The translations under genes and the position numbers were made by a program. The notes under the pieces were generated by a model, which saw only the letters and a list, made by a program, of their open reading frames with translations, was not told where the DNA came from and did not search any database. Positions 31,623 to 42,958 of a DNA stretch of 64,000 bases are shown here, piece after piece (position 1 is the first letter of the stretch; every line of letters begins with the position of its first letter). The DNA is from Sphingomonadales bacterium (GTDB lineage Bacteria; Pseudomonadota; Alphaproteobacteria; Sphingomonadales; Sphingomonadaceae). Location: positions 124,001 to 188,000 of the forward strand of contig JAIXPC010000002.1 in assembly GCA_027486415.1 (NCBI GenBank), written 5' to 3'.

Positions 31623-32759
31623 ATGCCGCTCATCCTCACCGACGACCAGTTGATGATCCGCGATTCGGCGGAAGGCTTCTTCAAGGACGAAGCCCCCGTC
31701 GCGCAGCATCGCTCCCTGCGTGACACGGCCAATCCGGATGGCTTCTCCCGCGATGTCTGGGCCAAGATGGCCGAGATGGGCTTTGCCGGCGTGCTGGTGC
31801 CGGAAAGCCATGGCGGCGCGGACATGGGCCATGTCGCCGCCGGCATCATCATGGAGGCGATGGGCAAGAACCTGTCTGCCGCGCCGATGCTCTCCACCGC
31901 CGTGCTGGGCGCGACCGCCATCAAGCATGGCACGCCCGAACAGCAGGCCAAGTATCTGCCGCTGATCGCGCAAGGCGCGCATCTGCTGGCGCTGGCGGCT
32001 GACGAGGCGGCACGGCACAAGCCGAACCATGTCGCCACCACCGCCACCCCGTCGGGCAACGGCTTCCGCCTGAATGGCGTAAAGGGCTTCGTCGTCGATG
32101 GCGGCGTGGCCGACACGCTGATCGTCGCCGCCCGCACCTCCGGCGAGGTGGGCGACACCGCCGGCATCACCCTGTTCCTCGTCGATCCCAACGCCGAAGG
32201 CGTCACCCGCGAAGCGCGTGCGATGGTGGACAGCCGCGGTGCCGCGCGCGTGACGCTGAACGATGTGCAGGTCGACGGCGCCGACGTGCTGGGCGAGGTT
32301 GGTGGCGGCCATGCCATCCTGGAAAAAGTGCTGGATGCCGGCCGCGCCTGCCTTGCCGCCGAAATGCTGGGCGTGTCGGGCACCTCGTTCGCGATGACGG
32401 TGGATTATCTCAAGCAGCGCGAACAGTTCGGCCAGAAGATCGGCAGCTTCCAGGCGCTGCAGCACCGCGCCGCGCACCTGTTCTGCGAGATCGAACTGGC
32501 GCGGTCGGCGACGCTGAAGGCGCTGCAGGCGCTGGACGAAGGCAGCGACCGCGCGCCGATGTATGTGTCGCTGGCCAAGGCCAAGGCCGGCGATGTCGCC
32601 ATCCTGGCCAGCAACGAAGGCGTGCAGATGCACGGCGGCATCGGCATGACCGATGAATATGACATCGGCTTCTTCATGAAGCGCGCCCGCGCCGCGCAGG
32701 AGACGTTCGGCGACAGCGCCTTCCACAGCGACCGCATCGCGCGCACGTTCGGGTACTAA
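31623..32759 (+). CDS. acyl-CoA dehydrogenase family protein (second subunit of a pair)
   Basis: A 378-residue member of the same family as the preceding gene, but with the usual flavin-binding region reduced: the central segment around HLLALAADEAARHKPNHV lacks the standard Y.LTEP.AGSD motif seen in its neighbour. The C-terminal part (LKQREQFGQKIGSFQALQHRAA and QMHGGIGMTDEYDI) is normal. Loss of part of the active site in one partner is typical of heteromeric acyl-CoA dehydrogenases. ATG 31623 is 4 bases after the first gene's stop. Confidence 0.9.
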   Translation: MPLILTDDQLMIRDSAEGFFKDEAPVAQHRSLRDTANPDGFSRDVWAKMAEMGFAGVLVPESHGGADMGHVAAGIIMEAMGKNLSAAPMLSTAVLGATAIKHGTPEQQAKYLPLIAQGAHLLALAADEAARHKPNHVATTATPSGNGFRLNGVKGFVVDGGVADTLIVAARTSGEVGDTAGITLFLVDPNAEGVTREARAMVDSRGAARVTLNDVQVDGADVLGEVGGGHAILEKVLDAGRACLAAEMLGVSGTSFAMTVDYLKQREQFGQKIGSFQALQHRAAHLFCEIELARSATLKALQALDEGSDRAPMYVSLAKAKAGDVAILASNEGVQMHGGIGMTDEYDIGFFMKRARAAQETFGDSAFHSDRIARTFGY

Positions 32760-32861
32760 CTCCCCTCCCGCCTGCGGGAGGGGCCGGGGGTGGGATTGGG
32801 CACCAGGCACCGCCCTTCGAATAACGCCCACCCCTAACCCCTCCCGCAACTGGGAGGGGAA
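32760..32861. repeat. palindromic intergenic repeat, copy 2
   Basis: Begins one base after the acyl-CoA dehydrogenase stop. Two hairpins of the CTCCCGC-NNN-GCGGGAG type in opposite orientation, with GGGGGTGGG after the first (from 32785) and CCCACCCCTAACCCC before the second (from 32828). It resembles copy 1 at 27132-27224 but with a spacer of about 33 bases instead of 23 and with more divergence in the outer arms. It may end or attenuate transcription of the two dehydrogenase genes. Confidence 0.8.
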
Positions 32862-32960
32862 TGGAAATCCTTGCGCTTGCAAGCATCCGCCAGCGTGGCA
32901 TTAATAGAGTGTAATATGGCCGCACAAAGCGGCTGGCCTTGCCCCTGGGGAGACTGAACC

Positions 32961-39107: not shown

Positions 39108-40436
39108 ATGAGTGTCAGCCTTGATAACAGCCCGCGCGTTGGCATGGTGTCCTTGGGATGCCCCAAGGCGCTGGTCGATTCCGAACGCATCCTCACCCAG
39201 CTGCGCGCCGATGGCTATGCGCTGTCGGGCGATTATGCCGGGGCAGACGTGGTGATCGTCAACACCTGCGGATTTCTCGACAGCGCCAAGGCCGAAAGCC
39301 TGGACGCCATTGGCGAGGCCATTGCCGAAAACGGCAAGGTGATCGTGACAGGCTGCATGGGCCACGAGGCCGACGCCATCCGCGCCCGCTTCCCCGATGT
39401 GCTCGCCGTCACCGGCCCGCAGCAATATGAGGCGGTGGTGAGCGCGGTGCACGAGGCGGCGCCGCCCGTCCGCTCCGCCTTCATCGATCTGGTGCCCGAT
39501 GCCGGCCTGAAGCTGACGCCGCGCCATTATGCCTATGTGAAGATTTCCGAAGGCTGCAATCACACCTGCGCCTTCTGCATCATCCCGTCCCTGCGTGGCC
39601 GGCTTGCGAGCCGTCCGCCGGCCGCCATCCTGCGCGAGGCGGAAGCGCTGGTGAAAGGCGGGGCGAAGGAACTGCTGGTCATCAGCCAGGACACGTCGGC
39701 CTATGGCGTTGACCTCAAGCACGCCACCTCGGCGCTGGGCGGCGTCGAACGCCGCGCCCACATCACCGATCTGGCCCGCGCGCTGGGTGAAACCGGCGCG
39801 TGGGTGCGGCTGCACTATGTCTATCCCTATCCGCACGTTGACGACCTGATGCCGTTGATGGCCGATGGGCTGGTGCTGCCCTATCTGGATATCCCGTTCC
39901 AGCACGCCAGCCCGGCCGTGCTGAAGGCGATGAAGCGCCCGGCCAACGAGGCCAAGGTGCTGGAGCGCATCCAGAACTGGCGGCGCATCGTCCCCGATCT
40001 CGCCATCCGCTCGACCTTCATCGTTGGCTTCCCCGGTGAGACGGAGGCCGATTTCCAGTATCTGCTGGATTGGCTGGAACAGGCGCAGATCGATCGCGCC
40101 GGCTGCTTCAAATATGAAGCGGTGGACGGTGCCCAGGCCAATGCCCTGCCCGGTGCCGTGCCGGAGGACGTGAAGGAAGAGCGCTGGCACCGGTTCATGG
40201 CAGTGCAGGCGCGGATTTCGGAAGCGCGGCTGGCAGCCAAGGTGGGCCGCGACATCGACGTGCTGATCGACGAGGTCGATGATGAGGGCGGCGCGTCCGG
40301 GCGCAGCAAATATGATGCGCCCGAAATCGACGGCATGGTGCACCTGCGCGACGCCGGCGGCGTCAAGCCGGGCGACATCATCACCGCGCGCATCGAGGAT
40401 TCAGACGAAACCGATCTGTTCGGAGTGCCGATTTGA
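39108..40436 (+). CDS. rimO: ribosomal protein S12 methylthiotransferase RimO
   Basis: A 442-residue radical-SAM enzyme adding a methylthio group to S12 Asp89. Domains in order: N-terminal UPF0004 domain with cluster cysteines ([27 protein letters not shown]), radical-SAM core with CNHTCAFC, and a C-terminal TRAM domain ([22 protein letters not shown]). The [12 protein letters not shown] start and TRAM are typical of RimO rather than MiaB. Its stop overlaps the start of the aminopeptidase gene (TTGA). Confidence 0.96.
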
Positions 40437-41818
40437 CCGATCCCGCCGCGCTGCTCGCCCCCGCCGATGGCCAGCCATCGGTGCCGCTGATCCCGTTGAC
40501 CAAGGCGGGGCTGGACGGCTGGCTGGCCACCCAGGGCGAACGGGTGCGGGTGGCAGTGACGGCGCAGGGCTTCACCGCCGCGCCCGACAGCATGGCCATA
40601 TTGCCGGGGGACGGCGTTGCCGACTGGTCGGTGGCGGTGGGCGTGGCCGATGGCCCGCTGGGCCCGTGGGCGCTGGCGGCGGCAGCGGAAAAGCTGCCGG
40701 CGGGCCGCTATGCGCTGGCCGGCGATCTGGGCCAGGCCGGGCTGGGCTGGTGCCTGGCGCAGCACAAGTTCACCCGATACCGCAAGGCCGAGCCCAAGGG
40801 CGCGCGGGTGCTGACAACCACCAGCCTTGCCGCCATCGGCAGCGCGGTGGCCGAAGCCCGCGCCACCATGCTGGTGCGCGATCTGGTCGACACGCCGGCC
40901 AGCGACATGGGCCCCGCCGATCTGGCACAGGCGGTGATCGACACGCTGAAACCGCTGGGTGCCGACGTGCAGGTGACGGTGGGCGAGGCGCTGCTGGAAA
41001 GGAACTTCCCCGCCGTCCACGCCGTTGGCCGGGCCGCCGCGCAGTCACCGCGCCTGATCGAGGCGACGTGGGGTGATGTGGCCCACCCGGTGCTGGCGAT
41101 CATCGGCAAGGGCATCACCTTCGACAGCGGCGGCCTCAACATCAAGCCGGGCAGCGGCATGGCGCTGATGAAGAAGGACATGGGCGGCGCGGCGCACGCG
41201 CTGGCGCTGGCGCGGCTGGTGATCGAGGCCAATCTGCGCGTTCGCCTGCACCTGATCATCCCGGCGGCCGAAAACGCCATTTCCGGCAACGCCCTGCGCC
41301 CCGGCGACATCATCGCCACCCGCGCCGGCAAGACGGTGGAGATCACCAACACCGATGCCGAAGGCCGGCTGGTGCTGTGCGATGCCATCGCGCTCGCCGC
41401 CGAAAAGAACCCGGCGATGATCGTCGATTTCGCCACCCTCACCGGCGCGGCGCGGGTGGCGCTGGGGCCGCAGCTGCCGGCGCTGTTTGCCAACGATGAC
41501 GCGCTGGCCAGCGAACTCCATGCGGCGGGCGCAGCGGCGGGCGATCCCGTGTGGCGGCTGCCGCTGTGGGCGCCCTATCACGACATGCTGAAATCCAGCA
41601 TCGCCGACATGGTGAACAGTGCCGATGGCGGCTTTGCCGGCGCGATCACGGCAGCGCTGTTCCTCGAAAAATTCGTGCCGGCCGGCGTGGCGTGGGCGCA
41701 TTATGACACCTTCGCCTGGAACAACGCCGCCCGCCCCGGCCGCCCGCGCGGCGGCGAGGCACTGGGCCTGCGCGCCACCTGGGCCGTGCTGCGGAGCCGG
41801 TTTGGGGGCCAACTTTGA
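40433..41818 (+). CDS. M17 leucyl aminopeptidase family protein
   Basis: A 461-residue dizinc aminopeptidase. The M17 signatures are intact: [18 protein letters not shown] with the KDMGGAA metal residues, and [13 protein letters not shown] with the catalytic region. The N-terminal non-catalytic domain is shorter than in E. coli PepA. The start is TTG at 40433, overlapping the rimO stop, with CGGAG upstream. The last codons (GGQL) lie inside the outer arm of the nested palindrome at 41802-42072, so its present C-terminus may have been altered by that element. Confidence 0.92.
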
Positions 41819-42072
41819 TCTGGATGGGGGTCGGCATGGGCCGGAGCGGCGATATGGCTAGGCGCGGGCGCGCGGGCTGGGCTTCGCCCCCCGGCGAGCG
41901 TCCGCAACGACGCCATATCGCCGCTCCGGCCCACCCTTCGGGCGCCACGCAGAAGGCCGATGGCGCGCTCACTCGATTGCCAGATAGCTCTGCTATCTGG
42001 CTGCACTCGCTCACTCCCCTCGGCCTTCTGCGTGACGTGACGACCCCCATCCAGACCAAAGTTGGCCCCCAA
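41802..42072. repeat. 271-bp nested palindromic (three-armed junction) element
   Basis: Outer arms 41802-41833 and 42041-42072 are 32-base inverted repeats with a single mismatch. Inside, hairpin A pairs 41837-41858 with 41912-41933 (22 perfect bp, 53-base loop), and hairpin B pairs 41946-41960 with 42020-42034 (15 perfect bp) and carries a further 10-bp hairpin, 41979-41988 with 41992-42001. Only 3 to 12 bases separate the arms, so the whole can be drawn as a three-way junction. Neither strand encodes a convincing protein and no target-site duplication is evident at the ends. It spans the M17 aminopeptidase stop (41816-41818) and ends at the A of the NlpC/P60 start codon. A small non-autonomous palindromic element (MITE-like) is the best guess; a regulatory RNA structure is an alternative. 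Confidence 0.85.
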
Positions 42073-42911
42073 TGAGCTGGGTGCTGAAGGGGCCGGCGCA
42101 GCGGTTCGAGCCGCGCGAATGGTTCGCCGGGCCGGACGTGGTGGAGCGCGCGCTGGCCGACGAGATCGGCGCCATGCGCTATGTCGAACCGCGCACGCTG
42201 GTGTGTGTCGTGCCGCGCGCCACCATCCGCCGCGATGCCGATGCCGGTGCCGAGGCGGTGAGCGAACTGCTGTTTGGCGAGGCGTTCGAGATTGCCGACG
42301 TGAAGGACGGCTTTGCGCTGGGGCGCTGCCTGCACGACCGTTATATCGGCTGGGTGAATTTCGACGCGCTCGCCCTGCCGGGGGCAGCGCCGACGCACCG
42401 CATCACGGCGCGGCGCGCACCGGTGTTTGGCACTGCCAGCATCAAGGCGGCGGTGATGATGGAATTGCCGTTCGGGGCCGCTGTGGACGGCACGATGGAC
42501 GGCAATTTCCTCGCACTGGCCGGCGGCGGTTTCGTGCATCGCCGCCATGTGGAGGCCGCGCCGAAGGACAGGTTTGCGGCGGCCGCGCTGTTCATGGGCG
42601 CGCCCTATCTGTGGGGTGGGCGGTCACCCGATGGCGTCGATTGTTCCGGGCTGGTGCAGCAGGCACTGGCCGCCGAAGGCATCGCGCTGCGCCGCGACAC
42701 CGATCTGCAGCGGCATCAGGGCGAAGCGGTGAAATTCGAGGCGCGGCAGCCCGGCGACCTGGTGTTCGTGCCCGGCCATGTCGGCATGCTGGTGGACGGC
42801 GACCAGCTGCTCCACGCCAACGCCCACTGGATGGCGGTGGTCGCAGAGCCGCTTACCGACGTGCTGGGGCGGCTGGAAAAGCCGGAGCCTGTCGTCAGAC
42901 GATTTGTCTGA
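42072..42911 (+). CDS. NlpC/P60 family cell-wall hydrolase with SH3-like domains
   Basis: A 279-residue C40 peptidase-like protein. Two SH3-like regions (about residues 40-105 and 110-155) precede an NlpC/P60 domain with the catalytic cysteine in VDCSGLVQQ, the histidine in PGHVGMLVDG and a third polar residue in LHANAHWM. Such enzymes cut the D-Glu-gamma-Dpm bond in peptidoglycan peptides. No signal peptide is seen, suggesting action on recycled muropeptides in the cytoplasm or non-classical export. ATG 42072 is the first base after the nested palindrome's right arm; no ribosome site is visible upstream, which is unusual. Confidence 0.88.
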   Translation: MSWVLKGPAQRFEPREWFAGPDVVERALADEIGAMRYVEPRTLVCVVPRATIRRDADAGAEAVSELLFGEAFEIADVKDGFALGRCLHDRYIGWVNFDALALPGAAPTHRITARRAPVFGTASIKAAVMMELPFGAAVDGTMDGNFLALAGGGFVHRRHVEAAPKDRFAAAALFMGAPYLWGGRSPDGVDCSGLVQQALAAEGIALRRDTDLQRHQGEAVKFEARQPGDLVFVPGHVGMLVDGDQLLHANAHWMAVVAEPLTDVLGRLEKPEPVVRRFV

Positions 42912-42915
42912 CGGA

Positions 42916-42948
42916 CTTTGCCCGCTGTCACATCACCAGCGGGCAAAG
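42916..42948. terminator. bidirectional hairpin between convergent genes
   Basis: A perfect 12-bp stem, CTTTGCCCGCTG (42916-42927) with CAGCGGGCAAAG (42937-42948), and a 9-base loop sit between the NlpC/P60 gene and the convergent methyltransferase. There is no T-run on either side, so termination efficiency is uncertain. Confidence 0.6.
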
Positions 42949-42958
42949 GCCGAAAACA

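Follow-up and report, generated by a model that had tools for sequence, protein, structure and literature searches.

The 271-base nested palindrome at positions 41802-42072 of the window (the whole 64,000-nucleotide stretch of sphingomonad DNA analysed here) is one copy of a small, mobile, gene-free DNA element. Its copies are dispersed, with empty sites in relatives, and they keep a nearly constant geometry, conserved loops and stems that covary in Watson-Crick fashion with no excess of G.U pairs. Movement of the element is well supported. It is probably a dispersed, non-autonomous, MITE-like element moved in trans by a transposase of the IS5/IS427 kind, with the folded strand mattering for mobility; two parts of this reading we infer, namely which transposase serves the window copy's subfamily and what the fold does.

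The window copy and its setting between two genes

The element and the two genes beside it comprise the following features.

40433..41818, + strand: upstream M17 leucyl aminopeptidase gene (pepA-like), its end altered by the insertion
41802..42072, no strand assigned: the full element in the alignment with other copies, 271 nt
41802..41836, + strand: left outer arm, ends TTGGGGGCC
41834..41834, + strand: conserved unpaired G, facing A 42040, beside the junction
41837..41933, + strand: hairpin 1 (left), with stem 41837-41858/41912-41933 and conserved apical part 41859-41911
41934..41942, + strand: mini-hairpin CCC-TTC-GGG at the junction, filling the 9-base gap between the hairpins
41943..42037, + strand: hairpin 2 (right), with stem 41943-41963/42017-42037 and conserved internal loops
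42038..42072, + strand: right outer arm, complementary to the left outer arm
42040..42040, + strand: conserved unpaired A, facing G 41834
42072..42911, + strand: downstream NlpC/P60 peptidase gene, whose ATG begins on the last base of the element

The preliminary description of this DNA had recorded 32-base terminal inverted repeats with one mismatch, a perfect 22-bp hairpin and a second hairpin with a 10-bp inner stem, and we recovered all three. The outer arms extend to 35 nt and are 94% complementary, with two mismatches, one of them within the outermost 32; the left arm has the consensus TTAGGGTCC in 22 aligned copies. The stem of hairpin 1 is paired at 22 of 22 positions. Hairpin 2 has an outer stem of 21 nt (90% complementary) and an inner stem, 41979-41988/41992-42001, paired at 10 of 10. 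Neighbouring arms are closely spaced, with gaps of 0 to 9 bases. The unpaired bases beside the junction are G.A in 20 of the 22 copies and T.C in the other 2.

Folded as RNA, the + strand reaches -199 kcal/mol (z -15.3) and the - strand -213 kcal/mol (z -16.0); folded as DNA, the + strand reaches -121 kcal/mol (z -16.3). None of 200 shuffles was as stable in any of these three tests, so the earlier judgement that the symmetry lies far beyond chance was sound. The element has no coding capacity for a transposase, and only mechanical ORFs cross its 271 nt. The earlier description needs one correction, since the palindrome does touch neighbouring genes: the pepA stop codon (TGA, 41816-41818) sits within the left outer arm, and the nlpC start codon begins at 42072.

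In seven relatives the pepA TGA and the nlpC ATG overlap, and the site reads ...CGGTTCGG^ATGAG..., or nearly so, without the element. Compared with these empty sites, the net insertion is ~266 bp (roughly 41806-42071, the exact cut being ambiguous by ~2 bases). It splits the overlap, pushes the two genes ~266 bp apart and changes the PepA C-terminus from RSRFG*, as translated in two relatives, to RSRFGGQL*. The two genes had been called coupled; they overlap in the relatives, and in the window the element separates them. A scan for the sigma-70 consensus and for T-runs found neither a promoter nor a terminator at the window copy.

Two other inverted repeats lie in the window. One, at 42909-42955 (TTTGCCCGCTG...CAGCGGGCAAA), is found just past nlpC (+), faces an ORF on the - strand and is terminator-like. 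The other, at 32756-32870, is GC-rich, of the type CTCCCCTCCCGC...GCGGGAGGGG, and directly follows a gene stop; it matches the element's covariance model weakly (E 6.5e-4) and looks like a member of a different repeat family.

Dispersal, insertion sites and element ends

The genome that contains the window (2.71 Mb) carries two copies, C14:165802-166072 and C14:297376-297646, with unrelated flanks. It belongs to the genus Sandarakinorhabdus: 1,060 bases of one relative, G009, are identical to part of an S. cyanobacteriorum record. At the DNA level, matches turned up in 19 of the 60 related genomes searched. Sixteen of these genomes, counting the window's own, belong to the same genus, and some of the faintest matches span only 24-29 nt. 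We then searched with a covariance model built from 22 aligned copies, using genome samples that overlap and that each include the window's own genome. The model matched 17 of 24 Sandarakinorhabdus genomes, 18 of 149 sampled genomes of the family (the 18 falling in 14 of 96 genera), 20 of 196 genomes of the order (one in another family) and 3 of 240 genomes of the class (two outside the order). The search for further copies that the preliminary description had called for, in the same and in related genomes, was therefore positive.

Among 57 genus copies that were read (contig-edge fragments, reverse-strand self-matches and weak hits being left out), only one pair, L136/L142, has both flanks in common. 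A further 23 family-level copies were read, with several weak or odd-length hits set aside. Carriage on plasmids or phages was rejected: 72,556 plasmid and 50,697 phage records gave no DNA match at E 1e-3. In one assembly, G023, element ends lie close to the ends of contigs C82, C188, C190, C221 and C300, which suggests more copies than the assembly shows.

Empty sites were sought by joining the flanks of 14 further copies and searching the genus, making 15 copies with that of the window, and 13 of the 15 (the window's included) gave a readable junction. L041 gave none, and for L070 there was no spanning match among the matches listed. At about half of the 13 junctions the flanks abut within a few bases; at the rest there is a short, diverged spacer. 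Comparison of occupied and empty sites had been proposed at the outset, and it succeeded both at the window site and elsewhere. Since copies and empty sites exist, a local accident of duplication and inversion was rejected. Dispersed copies with unrelated flanks, empty sites and, for one subfamily, ends that match those of a transposase family support the early suggestion of a non-autonomous mobile element.

The ends of the element are mostly YTAG...CTAR. All 57 genus copies have G at position 4, 49 have A at position 3 and 43 have T at position 2. The ends differ between subfamilies (TAGGG, TAGGC, TAGAG, TAGTG, TAGAC). Copies of subfamily III end TAGGYCGTGAACTCATAAA, which matches IS5/IS427-type terminal repeats over ~17 bases. 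An insertion sequence of ~830 bp in locus L219 of G009 has ends TTAGGTCGTAAACTCATAA / CTAGGTCGTAGACTCATTA, as read by eye, with a two-frame transposase bearing a DUF4096 domain between them. Across 80 loci of related transposases, mostly alphaproteobacterial, many have TA-GGYCGTRAACYCATAAA-like ends; these insertion sequences are ~830-860 bp long, several with TA on both sides, and subfamily III copies have nearly the same end. By script, many of the 80 loci gave no convincing ends, and 16 DUF4096 loci of the genus gave no terminal repeats of this type. DUF4096 transposases were hit in 10 of 24 genomes of the genus, with no hit in the window's own genome. The likeness of the ends thus supports a probable IS5/IS427 link for one subfamily, III. 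For subfamily I, an IS partner would have ends of the form TAGGGTCCAAACTCAAT; a non-exhaustive search of DUF4096-type transposases found no insertion sequence with subfamily I ends. The window copy's own ends have diverged (TTG...CAA), and its mover is for that reason a presumed one.

IS711 of Brucella targets YTAR and duplicates TA (PMC2266754). Some junctions fit this pattern. L073, of subfamily III, reads TTA...TAA where one relative has TTAA and the other CTAG (read by eye), and with the TTAA relative it fits a TA duplication; L040, whose relatives read CTAG, fits one as well. L043 has TA at both sides, but its relatives read CA. Most junctions of subfamily I, the window's among them, show no clean TA duplication and retain the native right side, often TGA. 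At the left junction of L042, L045 and L040, TT stands before AGGG where all relatives shown have CT, and this TT is not explained by plain IS5-type insertion. The empty sites of L044 differ among relatives (CTGA, TTGA, TTAA), and several subfamily I empty sites read CTGA, which lies outside YTAR.

Gene context was scored with gene calls that rest on a simple codon-usage score, in the 56 copies with enough flank (L056, 1 of the 57, had too little). Copies occur in all gene orientations. The genes around these copies present 64 3' ends to the element; for 38 of the 64, the stop is precisely the TAG that the element itself brings (positions 2-4). In 34 of the 56 copies, one or both element ends have a gene stop within positions 0-4. 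YTAR is rare in this window of 67% GC, with 19 sites in 64 kb, one inside the element, and 8 of the 19 are gene stops by the same codon-usage score. Targeting of YTAR together with loss of harmful insertions therefore explains much of the 34 of 56. A special mechanism that seeks stop codons was considered and is not needed in full, although YTAR targeting does not account for the CTGA sites.

Conservation of the fold

The length and layout of the element vary little. Of 92 copies read, 70 are 266-277 nt long, 15 are shorter (158-226) and 7 longer (278-307); among the short copies, several resemble forms in which one hairpin has suffered an internal deletion, and at least two run off the end of a contig. 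All 23 family-level copies measure 269-277 nt except one that is cut by a contig end, and they share one layout: the outer stem occupies ~1-35, and the two hairpins fall near 36-133 and 141-238, although the copies have widely different stem sequence. Most of the 12 order- and class-level copies fold alike. Hairpin 1 is interrupted near the meeting point of its stem and apical part in two copies, by 36 bp that themselves form a hairpin in L054 and by 13 bp in L051. The DUF3800-VIII RNA (Rfam RF03075) is matched beside, not within, the element in one family-level copy (L253:145-209, -).

Because the covariance model rewards any palindrome of this shape, common descent needs evidence from sequence. 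L356, whose genome belongs to a different family within the class, shares with the reverse strand of the window element a 9-mer, GCGTCGTTG, and an 8-mer, CGCCTAGC, at matching positions. L354 has several 8-mers in common with the window element; L357, L246 and L253 have only isolated ones. We tentatively raise a broader possibility, which we do not favour: that the copies form an old alphaproteobacterial superfamily whose mobility machinery reads the three-armed single-strand fold of near-constant size, its two conserved loops and the junction mismatch. The fold, and not the sequence of the ends, would then define the element, and its core would have been coupled to different transposon ends over time.

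In the 22-copy alignment, 97.7% of 2309 cells are paired, compared with 82.7% in shuffled alignments and 36-44% when the structure is slid. Both sides have changed with pairing kept at 60 of 105 pairs, and 337 cells carry such a change. No shuffle of 500 matched the element's pairing and covariation values, and slid structures gave 17-26 both-side-changed pairs. The element is thus neither unique nor unconserved nor lacking in covariation, the circumstances under which it might have been dismissed. Mean pairwise identity is 0.61 in the outer stem, 0.65 and 0.80 in the two hairpin stems, 0.82 in the inner stem of hairpin 2 and 0.80 in the mini-hairpin. It reaches 0.88 in the internal loop of hairpin 2, 0.90 in the apical part of hairpin 1, some short stretches of which are paired, and 0.97 at the junction. 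The junction and loops are therefore the most conserved parts, above the outer and hairpin stems.

Compensatory change of this kind had been expected if the palindrome were a structured RNA between two coupled genes. The changes are present, but they are not of the RNA type. The 22-copy alignment has 28 G.U against 24 A.C cells. RNase P RNAs from 22 genomes of the genus, counted likewise over only 29 consensus pairs, have 46 against 9 (Fisher p 0.0015 for the difference, in cells of related sequences that are not independent). Energy-free stem counts gave 47 G.U against 41 A.C in the 57 genus copies, and 26 against 26 in the 23 family copies, part of which are oriented the other way. A weak orientation rule, with many ties, gave an oriented total of 69 against 53 (p 0.17); as this rule is weak, the test rests on the 28 against 24, the energy-free counts and the RNase P control. 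Since RNase P of the same genomes shows a G.U excess and the element does not, the pairing looks to be maintained in DNA and not in RNA.

A structured RNA spread as a repeat, whether a regulatory RNA, an mRNA 3' end or a terminator, would agree with the strong covariation and conserved loops, the stable fold on both strands, the many copies at gene 3' ends and the slight lead of G.U in the weakly oriented copies. It is opposed by the want of a significant G.U excess such as RNase P has, by copies in all gene orientations and by the scan of the window copy, with neither promoter nor T-run. No Rfam family was matched: the best of 10 hits in the window region had E 0.022 and 26.9 bits against a gathering score of 168, and the 2 hits in 13 other loci both fell outside the element. 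We consider a structured RNA very unlikely, and as the main reading it was rejected on the G.U test and the RNase P control. A cruciform-forming site, another early proposal, fits the DNA-type covariation; such extrusion is putative.

Pairing kept in DNA could also be the by-product of neutral copying between arms, by template-switch quasipalindrome correction or hairpin repair, which would leave an ordinary MITE with functionless symmetry. G.U and A.C mismatches are equally rare, as this predicts, and L039 has lost one base per arm at paired positions. Such copying does not predict, however, that the junction and loops should be more conserved than the outer and hairpin stems. The nearly constant geometry across genera with unrelated stem sequence also speaks against it. 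The only orthologous pair found, L136/L142, bears on the same question. Its flanks are 97% alike, and the shared part differs by four point changes, none with a matching change in the partner base, while a shared A.C mismatch persists uncorrected. From this one pair, pairing seems to persist through the lineage that moves, and not to be repaired at a given site. Neutral copying is accordingly an unlikely account of the fold.

Integron attC sites and the ends of IS200/IS605 elements are recognised as folded single-stranded DNA. The element might likewise be a folded single-stranded site for a recombinase or single-strand transposase, with its likeness to IS5-type ends secondary. Structure kept while stem sequence varies, the two conserved unpaired bases beside the junction, ends that vary between subfamilies and the rarity of a clear target duplication in subfamily I would all suit such a site. 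The ~17-base match of subfamily III ends to IS5/IS427-type repeats and the TA duplication that fits L073 speak against it, and we judge it less probable still than neutral copying.

In the MITE-like reading that we prefer, a transposase acting in trans, most likely of the IS5/IS427 kind, would recognise the element ends, and insertion would occur at YTAR or stop-codon-like sites. Many surviving copies lie at gene ends, where translation stops at the terminal TAG of the element. Folded into its three arms, one DNA strand would pair both element ends together, and the folded DNA may be needed, or regenerated, during movement. A conventional transposon needs no 270-nt fold, so the link between fold and mobility is one that we infer.

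Relation to known elements

IS711/IS6501 and the IS5/IS427 group resemble the element in the YTAR target with duplicated TA (for IS711, PMC2266754) and, in alphaproteobacterial insertion sequences, in TA-GGYCGTRAACYCATAAA-like ends; the element differs in having no transposase and, in the window copy, no clean TA duplication. Dispersed palindromic repeats are also known in alphaproteobacteria as Bru-RS1/Bru-RS2 of Brucella and RIME of rhizobia, single palindromes near 100 bp. By this description, and not by sequence, they are set apart from the element. Bru-RS is linked to IS711 (PMC2266754).

REP/BIME sequences with their RAYT transposases are likewise extragenic palindromes near gene ends. 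REPs are short hairpins with GTAG-type motifs; compared by size and form, the element has three arms and several times their length. Integron attC sites share with it a stem whose sequence is free and unpaired bases that are conserved, and there the folded single strand is what is recognised; the ends of one subfamily of the element, in contrast, resemble those of DDE transposons.

The closest likeness is to bacterial MITEs, which include IS5- and IS630-linked kinds. Like them, the element is small and gene-free, has terminal inverted repeats, is dispersed with empty sites and, in subfamily III, has ends in common with a full insertion sequence. The usual view is that a MITE requires its ends and nothing else. 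The element, in contrast, has a three-armed fold of near-constant size; its loops are conserved, its stems covary far past the terminal repeat, and its core is common to subfamilies with different ends. Searches of open-licence papers gave no description of such an element in sphingomonads: a MITE is a known kind, and the three-armed conserved DNA fold is a form not listed by these searches. From genus to genus, and in two genomes from other families of the class, the interior retains a single shape while most of the stem sequence changes, following pairing rules of DNA and not of RNA. Should movement require the fold, there would be a structure-dependent branch of bacterial DDE transposition. 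The many copies at stop codons, where they supply a new TAG, suggest a way for such elements to lie within operons and leave the genes intact.
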